DNA of 52,779 bases from Actinomycetota bacterium. GTDB taxonomy: Bacteria; Actinomycetota; Acidimicrobiia; Acidimicrobiales; Ilumatobacteraceae. Made by a program: the position numbers and the translations under genes. Position 1 is the stretch's first letter, and every line of letters starts with the position of its first letter. Positions 47,144 to 49,571 of this stretch are shown here, piece after piece. The DNA is taken from assembly GCA_017856115.1 (NCBI GenBank), contig JAFMFM010000009.1, positions 1 through 52,779 of the forward strand, read 5' to 3'. A model generated the notes under the pieces. It worked only from the letters and a program-made list of their open reading frames with translations, had not been told where the DNA came from and did no database searches.

Positions 47144-47611
47144 GTGAGCAATCTGTTTGACGAGGGTGAGCGCGCGAGTTTCGAGCGCCGCATCGACGAA
47201 TGGCTTGCAACGGTGCACCGATCCCACCCCAACACCGTCTCTGCCGGTCGTGCGCCGAACGAATCGGACCGTTGGATGGTTCGTCTACGAGGTGACGTAA
47301 AGGAATTCACCACCATCTGGCTACGGCTCGGTCAACGAACACTGCACTACGAGACGTACGTGATGCCGTTTCCCGAGGAGAACTCGGCGGAGGTCTTCGA
47401 GGTTCTCCTACGACGAAACGAAAGGCTGGTGGGCGCCCACTATGCACTCGGTGCAGAAAATGCGGTGTTCCTCACCGGGCAGTTGGTGCTCGCTGCATTG
47501 ACGGAGTCGGAGTTGGATCGCATCATCGGCACGTTGTATGCCACCGTCGAGGCACAATTCGACGAACTCGTCCGCCGCGCATTTGCGAGTCGATTTTCGT
47601 CGGCTCAGTAG
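47144..47611 (+). CDS. YbjN-like protein (Rv0487 type)
   Basis: A 155-residue soluble alpha/beta protein with the YbjN/secretion-chaperone-like layout: WMVRLRGDVKEFTTIWLRLGQRTLHYETYVMP, then RNERLVGAHYALG and a C-terminal helix. Function in the family is not established. Position after mshA matches mycobacteria. GTG 47144 lies 22 bases after mshA. Confidence 0.8.
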   Translation: MSNLFDEGERASFERRIDEWLATVHRSHPNTVSAGRAPNESDRWMVRLRGDVKEFTTIWLRLGQRTLHYETYVMPFPEENSAEVFEVLLRRNERLVGAHYALGAENAVFLTGQLVLAALTESELDRIIGTLYATVEAQFDELVRRAFASRFSSAQ

Positions 47612-47614
47612 CCT
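47609..47614 (+). promoter_or_regulatory. -10 hexamer of proC, overlapping a stop codon
   Basis: TAGCCT begins with the TAG stop of the YbjN-like gene and lies 7 bases before GTG 47622. Confidence 0.5.
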
Positions 47615-47621
47615 TCGCAAC

Positions 47622-48419
47622 GTGGGAGCAGTGCCGGTGTTGGTGATCATCGGCGGTGGAAATATGGGTGCGGCCCTCGTGGAAGGGGCACTCCATGCCG
47701 GGAGGAGTCCCGGCGAGATCACCGTCGTGGAAGCAAGGGAGGACCGTCGTCGGGAACTGATGCACATGTTTCCCGGCGTCGAAGTAACCGGGGCGATTCC
47801 CGCGTGTGGCGACGTCATCGTCGCGGTGAAACCTTCACAGGTTGCGGAAGTCTGCACGGCTGCGGTGGCGCGCGGAGCATCGCGCATCATGTCGATTGCC
47901 GCAGGTGTGCGACTCGCAGCCCTGCAGCAGGCGAGCGGGGAGGCCGTACGTGTGGTGCGCGCAATGCCCAACACCCCGGCCCTCGTGGGAATGTCGGCAA
48001 CCGCCGTCTGTGTCTCGGCCAACTGTGACGCCGCCGATCGGTCGTGGGCACGACAACTGATGGAAGGCATGGGAATCGTGGTGGAGTTGGACGAGTCGCT
48101 GCTCGATGCGTTCACCGGACTGATCGGTTCTGGTCCCGCATACGTTTTTTACCTGGCGGAATCGCTGTACCACGCGGCTCGCGCGGAAGGTTTCGACTCC
48201 GTCACCAGCGCCACACTGGTATCGCAGTTGATTGCCGGATCGGCCGCGCTCCTGCAACGCGAACCCGATGGCGCCGAGCGACTCCGCCTGCGTGTAACGT
48301 CGCCGAACGGTACCACTGCGGCAGGGGTCGCCCAATTGGAGATGCACGGCGTTCGAGACGCGATCATTAAGGCAGTTCGTGCAGCAACCGCTCGCAGCAA
48401 GGAACTCGGTGACGCGTAG
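47622..48419 (+). CDS. proC: pyrroline-5-carboxylate reductase
   Basis: A 265-residue enzyme making proline from pyrroline-5-carboxylate with NAD(P)H. The N-terminal VIIGGGNMGAALVEG binds the cofactor, VRAMPNTPALVG is the mid-domain signature, and the C-terminal FTGLIGSGPAYVFYLAES plus VTSPNGTTAAGV are the ProC family signature. GTG 47622 is supported by its -10-like element. GTG 47631 is an alternative. Confidence 0.96.
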   Translation: MGAVPVLVIIGGGNMGAALVEGALHAGRSPGEITVVEAREDRRRELMHMFPGVEVTGAIPACGDVIVAVKPSQVAEVCTAAVARGASRIMSIAAGVRLAALQQASGEAVRVVRAMPNTPALVGMSATAVCVSANCDAADRSWARQLMEGMGIVVELDESLLDAFTGLIGSGPAYVFYLAESLYHAARAEGFDSVTSATLVSQLIAGSAALLQREPDGAERLRLRVTSPNGTTAAGVAQLEMHGVRDAIIKAVRAATARSKELGDA

Positions 48420-48468: not shown

Positions 48469-48537
48469 TTCGACTCGAACGTCATCGATTCGACTCGCAA
48501 AATTTCGTCGAGTTGGGTGTTGCAAAATCTCCAACAC
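48469..48537. repeat. short direct and inverted repeats before a promoter
   Basis: TTCGACTCG occurs at 48469-48477 and 48489-48497, 20 bases apart (about two helical turns). GTGTTG (48517-48522) and CAACAC (48532-48537) form a 6-bp inverted repeat spanning the -35-like TTGCAA. They look like operator sites for the downstream RNA. Confidence 0.5.
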
Positions 48538-48547
48538 TGCGTAACGT
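48520..48547 (+). promoter_or_regulatory. candidate promoter for the structured RNA
   Basis: TTGCAA (48520-48525) and TAACGT (48542-48547) are separated by 16 bases. This predicts transcription start near 48553, just before three consecutive hairpins. Confidence 0.45.
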
Positions 48548-48552
48548 AGGAC

Positions 48553-48657
48553 TTCATCAGATCACCGGACGGCTTGCCGTTCCGGGAGTCGCGCCCGAAA
48601 GGGTTGCGCCGTATGGGTCGGTGCCGTCGGGGGGTTGGCACCGACCCTTACGTTTTT
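48553..48657 (+). ncRNA. candidate structured RNA ending in a strong terminator
   Basis: Three hairpins follow one another: CCGGACGG/CCGTTCCGG with loop CTTG (48565-48585); CGC-CCC with GAAA tetraloop and GGG-GCG across an internal loop (48590-48608); and an 11-bp perfect stem GGGTCGGTGCC/GGCACCGACCC (48615-48647) followed by TTACGTTTTT. No open frame fits. It could be a small RNA or an attenuator/riboswitch leader of the SAM hydroxide adenosyltransferase gene. I match it to no known family. Confidence 0.55.
48615..48657 (+). terminator. Rho-independent terminator
   Basis: A perfect 11-bp GC-rich stem, an 11-base loop with six G, and a T-rich tail. It lies 33 bases before ATG 48690. Confidence 0.8.
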
Positions 48658-48663
48658 CCGCAA

Positions 48664-48669
48664 TAGCGT
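48664..48669 (+). promoter_or_regulatory. possible separate -10 for the SAM hydroxide adenosyltransferase gene
   Basis: TAGCGT, 20 bases before ATG 48690 and after the terminator. If active, the upstream RNA would be an independent transcript and not a leader. Confidence 0.35.
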
Positions 48670-48689: not shown

Positions 48690-49571
48690 ATGACGAATCA
48701 GCGATACGACACCATCTCGTTCCTTTCCGACTACGGAGTACGCGACGAGTTCGTCGGCATCGTGAAGTGCGTCATTGCCGACCTTGCACCCCATGCGAAG
48801 GTGATCGACCTCACGCACGACATTCCACCGTTCGACGTCCGCGCAGGCTCTCTGGCACTTGCCCGTTGCATCTCCTACGTGCCGACGGGCATCGTGCTGG
48901 CCGTGGTCGACCCCGGCGTGGGAACGACGCGTCGTGCGGTTGCGGTTTCCGTGGGGGGCGGGCGCGGGGTGTTGATCGGCCCAGACAACGGCTTGCTCTC
49001 GATGGGTACGGCATTGGCCGGAGGTGCCGAGTCGGCCGTGGTGCTCAACAATCCCGAGTACCAACTCGCCACACCCGGCACGACGTTTGCCGGGCGGGAC
49101 ATCTTCGCACCAGCAGCAGCGCATCTCTGCAACGGCGTGCCGCTTGCCGCACTCGGTGATGCAATCGATCCGAACGTGCTGCTGCCTGGTGTGGTTCCTC
49201 TCTCACGTGTGGAAGGTGAGGAGACGATTGCAGAAATCACGTGGGTGGATCGCTACGGAAATTGTCAACTCAACGTCGGCCCGGATGACGTTTCCTCGTA
49301 CGGCAGCACGTTGAGCATCACCTTCACCACCGCGACCGGCGAGCGTTCGTCCCGATCGGCGGTGGTGGCACCGAACTTCTCTGCAATCGGTGGCGGTATC
49401 GGACTGGTCATCGATTCCTTCGGGATGTTGGCAATCTCCGTCGATCGTGGATCGGCGGCGGATGCGCTGTCGCTCGGAGTTGGTGATGCCGTGACGCTGT
49501 CGGCACTCGACGACGTTGGTGGCGTTACCACGAACGTTCGATTGCGCCGCAGCCAGTCGACGCCGGAGTGA
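48690..49571 (+). CDS. SAM hydroxide adenosyltransferase (DUF62/fluorinase-chlorinase family)
   Basis: A 293-residue enzyme that hydrolyses S-adenosylmethionine to adenosine and methionine. Residues of the Asp-Arg-His water-activating set are visible in VVDPGVGTTRRAV (Asp, Arg) and GRDIFAPAAAHL (His). The N-terminal ISFLSDYGVRDEFVG is also conserved. Halogenases of the fold have a Ser/Thr pocket and no such triad, so hydrolysis is the better call. Physiological role of the family is unclear. Confidence 0.9.
   Translation: MTNQRYDTISFLSDYGVRDEFVGIVKCVIADLAPHAKVIDLTHDIPPFDVRAGSLALARCISYVPTGIVLAVVDPGVGTTRRAVAVSVGGGRGVLIGPDNGLLSMGTALAGGAESAVVLNNPEYQLATPGTTFAGRDIFAPAAAHLCNGVPLAALGDAIDPNVLLPGVVPLSRVEGEETIAEITWVDRYGNCQLNVGPDDVSSYGSTLSITFTTATGERSSRSAVVAPNFSAIGGGIGLVIDSFGMLAISVDRGSAADALSLGVGDAVTLSALDDVGGVTTNVRLRRSQSTPE

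Follow-up and report, generated by a model that had tools for sequence, protein, structure and literature searches.

The closest described system is 6C/B11 (RF01066), an RNA of the Actinomycetales which, like the RNA reported here, is about 100 nt long and has a hairpin loop that exposes six identical bases. The excerpted account of B11 describes repression by C6 loops acting on a tract of six guanosines within a 5' UTR, the loop serving as the pairing site (PMC10470900), and an excerpt on Corynebacterium places 6C within the GlxR network (PMC4046766). GsrN of Caulobacter, as far as the excerpted source describes it, pairs through a conserved C-rich loop with a complementary G-tract in the 5' leader of its target and is tied to stress sigma regulation (PMC5869019). 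Small RNAs also alter Rho access, rpoS included, and DsrA, RprA and ArcZ act on the leader of this group-2 sigma factor mRNA partly through Rho, according to the excerpted text of the source (PMC12691595).

The locus described here belongs to another class of Actinomycetota. The window, by which we mean the whole 52,779-nt stretch of DNA that was analysed, is contig C12 of a 1.67-Mb genome. Between proC and a SAM hydrolase gene it contains a structured RNA, set out with its neighbours below.

47538..48419, + strand: proC (pyrroline-5-carboxylate reductase; TIGR00112 above cut-off), the upstream neighbour of the RNA
48520..48525, + strand: -35-like element TTGCAA of the RNA promoter
48542..48547, + strand: -10-like element TAACGT of the RNA promoter
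48553..48657, + strand: small RNA of about 105 nt, its start placed from the -10 element and its end from the T tract
48560..48590, + strand: hairpin P1, whose sequence varies and which some genera lack or have replaced
48590..48608, + strand: hairpin P2, with covariation in seed and held-out rows
48615..48647, + strand: hairpin P3, a terminator-type hairpin with a perfect 11-bp stem (48615-48625 with 48637-48647) and covariation
48626..48636, + strand: P3 loop RUCGGGGGGUU with GGGGGGUU invariant in 139/139 copies, the proposed C-tract pairing site
48653..48657, + strand: terminator T tract TTTTT, read in the sequence
48664..48669, + strand: -10 element TAGCGT, belonging to the promoter of the SAM hydrolase gene itself
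48690..49571, + strand: flanking gene for SAM hydroxide adenosyltransferase / SAM hydrolase (PF01887, PF20257)

A first-pass annotation of this DNA had proposed that a structured RNA without an assigned family lies here, has its own promoter as well as a terminator, and does not depend on the gene that follows. Conservation and the Rfam searches bear this out, and the direct repeat, inverted repeat, -35/-10-like elements, three hairpins and second -10-like element that it listed are all located where it had placed them. Its feature list omitted the most conserved part of the RNA, the G6 loop of P3. The RNA folds at -55 kcal/mol (48553-48657; z -3.6 against dinucleotide shuffles, of which 1 in 200 was equally good). 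P2 follows a layout of CGC, a variable stem, a short loop that is often of the GNRA type, a bulged base and GCG.

The family sample comprised 150 Ilumatobacteraceae-like MAGs from 27 genera, with 13 genomes in the window's own genus. Searching with blastn (query 48540-48665) recovered the RNA from 13/13 same-genus genomes, and from the greater part of the family sample. R1, a model of P2 and P3 built from 14 sequences, matched 139 of the 150 genomes and 25 of the 27 genera, and one copy per genome was taken from these 139 and realigned. Seven of the 11 genomes lacking an R1 match were inspected; four have no hydrolase match and in three the hydrolase match sits solely at a contig edge; these seven assemblies therefore lack the place of the RNA. 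Across 298 genomes of the order R1 gave 19 matches, 12 of them within the family, and across 198 genomes of the class all 15 matches were within the family. Weak matches outside it (f25, f31, f40 and f45) were taken as chance.

In the 14 seed sequences 96.9% of cells are paired and 12 of 21 pairs are changed on both sides, giving 28 both-side-changed cells against 7.9 in shuffles. Two held-out sets, both read on the sense strand, behave alike: 53 distinct rows are 96.5% paired with 101 such cells (28.1 in shuffles, maximum 38), and 61 rows are 95.5% paired with 113 (34.9, maximum 48), figures that lean upward since the alignments are fitted to R1 and the rows are related. P2 and P3 both covary family-wide, and conservation thus extends beyond the terminator stem. 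The loop GGGGGGTT of P3 is identical in 139/139 copies while the surrounding stem pairs vary. The P3 stem is conserved everywhere, and a T run of at least four follows in the tail in 69/139 copies (two copies end at a contig edge); not every copy therefore has the classical poly-U tail. G-U pairs in the P3 alignment assign the RNA to the + strand. An RNA on the opposite strand, which would carry a C6 loop, was rejected because these pairs would become C-A mismatches and because R1 scores 21-29 bits antisense against 31-97 bits sense.

An Rfam scan of the window matched no family except a tRNA, and at a permissive threshold the RNA itself drew just two miRNA models, far below their cut-offs. 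The first-pass view that this is no known riboswitch agrees with the absence of any SAM or SAH riboswitch, or other Rfam leader, at gathering score. Identity with 6C RNA was likewise rejected, as the RF01066 covariance model matched 0/61 genomes. The literature searched, as open-licence full texts, contained nothing relevant on an RNA of this group or a similar G-loop small RNA, and no circuit of small RNA and sigma factor in this branch of the Actinomycetota. The RNA is a new family of a known kind, the trans-encoded small RNA, and its homopolymer pairing is the reverse of that of 6C/B11. It carries G6 rather than C6, and a single such loop within a terminator-type hairpin, whereas 6C RNA has two C6-loop hairpins.

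Our results support a model, to which we assign a probability of roughly one half, of a trans-acting small RNA whose G6 loop would pair with C-tracts in the mRNA of a sigma factor and alter sigma output. That the RNA acts by base pairing through its loop is the better-founded part of this proposal and is fairly probable from the sequence comparisons; whether its main targets include the sigma factor mRNA is an even call. A transcript of about 105 nt would start from its own promoter in the intergenic region between proC and the SAM hydrolase gene and end at the intrinsic-terminator-type hairpin, with GGGGGGUU in the loop of that hairpin as the presumed active site. This loop would pair with C-tracts near the 5' end of the mRNA for a group-2-type sigma-70 family factor and, in some genera, directly ahead of its start codon. 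Two outcomes are envisaged: ribosome blocking, and hence repression, where a tract abuts the AUG, or altered access of Rho to a C-rich, G-poor leader. Rho binds leaders of that composition. Repression is placed slightly ahead of a Rho effect because of the tracts adjoining the start codon. We infer transcription, pairing in the cell and the direction of the effect alike.

The candidate target emerged from the window's own genus. The loop complement AACCCCCCGAY has 24 exact matches in the 13 same-genus genomes, 13 of which are the RNA itself, and six of the remaining 11 are a single orthologous site about 70 nt ahead of the ATG of a sigma factor gene. Its 275-aa product contains sigma-70 regions 1.2, 2 and 4 above Pfam cut-offs and region 3 just below; no NCBIfam equivalog reaches its cut-off, so the group 2 label rests on length and best matches (SigB/RpoD family). 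The site in the window's genome, CAATCCCCCGACG, can form 13 pairs with the loop, one of them G-U, and the same-genus leader site matches the loop over 13 nt with both flanks included. Given a sigma-70-type promoter just upstream, the C-tracts probably lie within a few tens of nucleotides of the mRNA's 5' end. Predicted loop-leader duplexes range from -26.4 to -29.6 kcal/mol in 9/9 same-genus genomes, with 0-6 of 300 shuffles as good. In 18 other family genomes z reaches -2 or lower in two and most leaders do not go beyond their own shuffles, a weak signal explained in part by shuffles that retain much of the C content.

The wider signal is in the C-tracts themselves. A C-tract test, in which runs of at least four C must sum to at least 10 within 70 nt, was passed by 23 of 27 family leaders; the four that fail (G034, G030, G018 and G014) all come from genomes with the RNA. 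Of 80 further loci, 75 had enough upstream sequence, and together with the 27 family leaders these were dereplicated to 52 sigma leaders, 45 of which pass (G-run control, 1/52). Background windows from the same contigs pass in 1.10% of 10450 cases. At a C-run sum of at least 15 the comparison is 25/52 against 0.07%, and at a sum of at least 20 it is 13/52 against none. Among the leaders of different genes on those contigs, taken from crude ORF calls, 2/93 pass and none reaches 15.

The principal alternative, which we regard as possible if somewhat doubtful, keeps the independent small RNA and removes the sigma leader as its target. The G6 loop would then pair with other C-tract mRNAs or bind a protein; in the sigma leader, the C-tracts would have a role as sites for a DNA-binding regulator, in loading Rho or in the start of transcription. 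In its favour, the C-tracts alone are conserved, matching of the flanks being weak: a two-sided AA..GA flank match occurs in 7/127 tracts against 2/207 in background, a weak enrichment. Two out-of-family genomes without an R1 match also carry sigma leader C-tracts, with a sum of 10 each. The sigma C-tracts might themselves be DNA sites, given that a similar cluster of C runs between mraZ and an ABC-transporter ORF (L282/L296 in G000:C5, and L291 in G005:C24) reads as repeated TGGGG on the mraZ strand. We take this repeat to resemble MraZ operator boxes, and the cluster is probably a MraZ operator, acting as DNA, on the other strand. Against this alternative stand the 13-nt match with both flanks in the window's genus and the occurrence of CAACCCCCC, the complement of GGGGGGUUG, in 9/52 sigma leaders and 0 background windows. 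Tract spacing also differs among sigma leaders with no single helical-turn period, and in 9/52 the ATG is 4 nt or less from the end of a tract.

Two observations concern C runs beside start codons. The sigma leaders at L313, L315, L318, L320 and L329 have C5-C6 runs directly before the ATG, at the place expected of a Shine-Dalgarno sequence. Separately, at about position 1499 of L290 (G013), reverse strand, a C6 run directly precedes the ATG of an ORF which we take to be malate-dehydrogenase-like, and which may be a second target of the RNA in one genome.

For the chemistry of the proposed pairing, B11 and GsrN are the precedents. The role proposed here for the G6 loop is that of the B11 loop. 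GsrN shares the tie to stress sigma regulation; it differs, in the excerpt at hand, in its C-rich loop and G-rich target, in its alphaproteobacterial host and in being transcribed under a sigma factor rather than being a proposed regulator of one. DsrA, RprA and ArcZ, whose control of rpoS is Hfq-dependent, are likened to the present RNA by role and not by sequence comparison. In its most extended form, which we advance tentatively, the proposal is of a '6G RNA' that mirrors 6C/B11. It would bind several C-tracts in tandem at the very 5' end of an mRNA to control an alternative sigma factor in an rpoS-like circuit, masking Rho entry or closing the start codon, with a CRP/FNR-like site over its -35 region in most other genera and related RNAs with G5-6 loops in at least one further family. 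If true, a family that lives in lakes and coastal seas would have its first regulatory RNA, one retained by nearly all family genomes, small ones included, and one that is the direct counterpart of 6C/B11, the two pairing strands being exchanged. Were the RNA to govern a group-2-type sigma factor, two short sequences would make it testable how these bacteria, mostly uncultured, control stress or growth state.

A further possibility is that the RNA titrates a protein that binds G runs, in the way that CsrA is titrated by CsrB-type RNAs. A protein site, too, can look like an invariant loop carried by a variable stem, and RNAs of family f27 have two G5-6 loops. However, each RNA in the window's family has one such loop, the loop has no GGA core and no candidate protein was found in this analysis, and we consider titration improbable.

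The remaining alternatives tie the RNA to its neighbouring genes. The order proC, RNA, hydrolase on one strand holds in 126/139 copies, with proC on one side of the RNA in the majority of copies and the hydrolase usually 13-123 nt downstream. In genus g13, which supplies seven of the 126, the gap between RNA and hydrolase is 721-801 nt with another gene in between; in one such locus (L085) we take the intervening ORF to be Asp/Glu-racemase-like. Genus g12 (5/139) has the order hydrolase, RNA and then proC on the opposite strand, placing the RNA downstream of the hydrolase. In genus g23 (3/139) no hydrolase gene follows the RNA, the gene being elsewhere in the genome on another contig. An inverted proC accounts for 1/139 copies, and contig ends interrupt 4/139 neighbourhoods.

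It is very improbable that the RNA is a mere transcription terminator or 3' UTR of proC. The RNA does directly follow proC, and a terminator-type hairpin closes it, but a conserved promoter separates the two, P2 covaries by itself and the loop is more conserved than the stem. This reading was rejected on the 6/139 copies in which proC lies on the strand opposite the RNA and the RNA is retained.

The hydrolase gene has a conserved -10 element of its own. There the motif TAGCGTGACC directly precedes the hydrolase start codon in 13/13 same-genus loci, and the hydrolase mRNA probably starts past the RNA terminator and is nearly leaderless. The sequence suggests leaderless transcription of this gene. 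In relatives TAGCGT is found about 9 nt ahead of the start codon, which is GTG in many. The second -10-like element was thus rightly taken by the first-pass annotation to favour an independent RNA. That annotation had left a choice between a small RNA and a new attenuator and had drawn a link to SAM; the independent small RNA, which we hold to be very likely, stands, and the attenuator and the link to SAM fall with the separate promoter and the relocated gene. A riboswitch, attenuator or other cis-acting leader of the SAM hydrolase gene is barely credible and was rejected, for despite the collinearity of most copies no Rfam riboswitch matched, the hydrolase has its own -10 beside the start codon, and the gene lies upstream of the RNA in five copies, some 700 nt further off in seven and on another contig in g23. 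On this evidence the SAM hydrolase gene is a flanking gene and not the target of the RNA.

The promoter of the small RNA is itself conserved, on sequence evidence, as TTGYAW-16 nt-TAANGT, with both hexamers and their spacing kept in 13/13 same-genus loci. The surrounding repeats are not. The direct repeat TTCGACTCG occurs at 48469 and 48489, 20 nt apart, with three copies in the window against a chance expectation of 1.15, and an inverted repeat GTGTTG/CAACAC surrounds TTGCAA. The direct and inverted repeats, previously termed operator-like, are present in only 2/13 same-genus genomes, those two near-identical, and an operator role was rejected. In other genera the promoter region often has TGTGACNCTTTTCTCA 15-17 nt ahead of TAnnnT, and an element of this type (at least 12 of 16 positions) with a TAnnnT -10 is found in 77/139 copies. 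We take the half-sites of TGTGACNCTTTTCTCA to resemble CRP/FNR sites, which over the -35 region would suit repression or a special promoter. GlxR is a CRP-type regulator, and the place of 6C in its network thus has a likeness in the CRP-like promoter site that the present RNA has in most other genera. The exact pattern TGTGNCNCTTTTCNCA has nine matches in 20 genomes, eight of them at the RNA itself; being almost confined to the RNA, it is uninformative about any regulon, and a CRP regulon defined by this pattern was rejected. Away from the RNA, one exact copy of the promoter motif turned up (TGTGACGCTTTTCACA), in L206 (G022:C117), ahead of an unassigned stretch.

Related-looking RNAs were also seen in family f27. 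Five loci (L072, L104, L105, L107 and L074, the last at about 1450-1600 on the reverse strand) contain a three-hairpin RNA in which hairpins 1 and 3 have loop runs of 5-6 G in most cases, with fold z values of -6.0 and -4.8 for two of the RNAs. In two loci read (L092 and L094) the RNA comes after an ORF, presumably that of a CO-dehydrogenase-type FAD subunit. In two further f27 genomes (L106 and L108) terminator-like hairpins carry a GGGGGGAA loop, and a second hairpin with a G-rich loop lies about 120 nt downstream.
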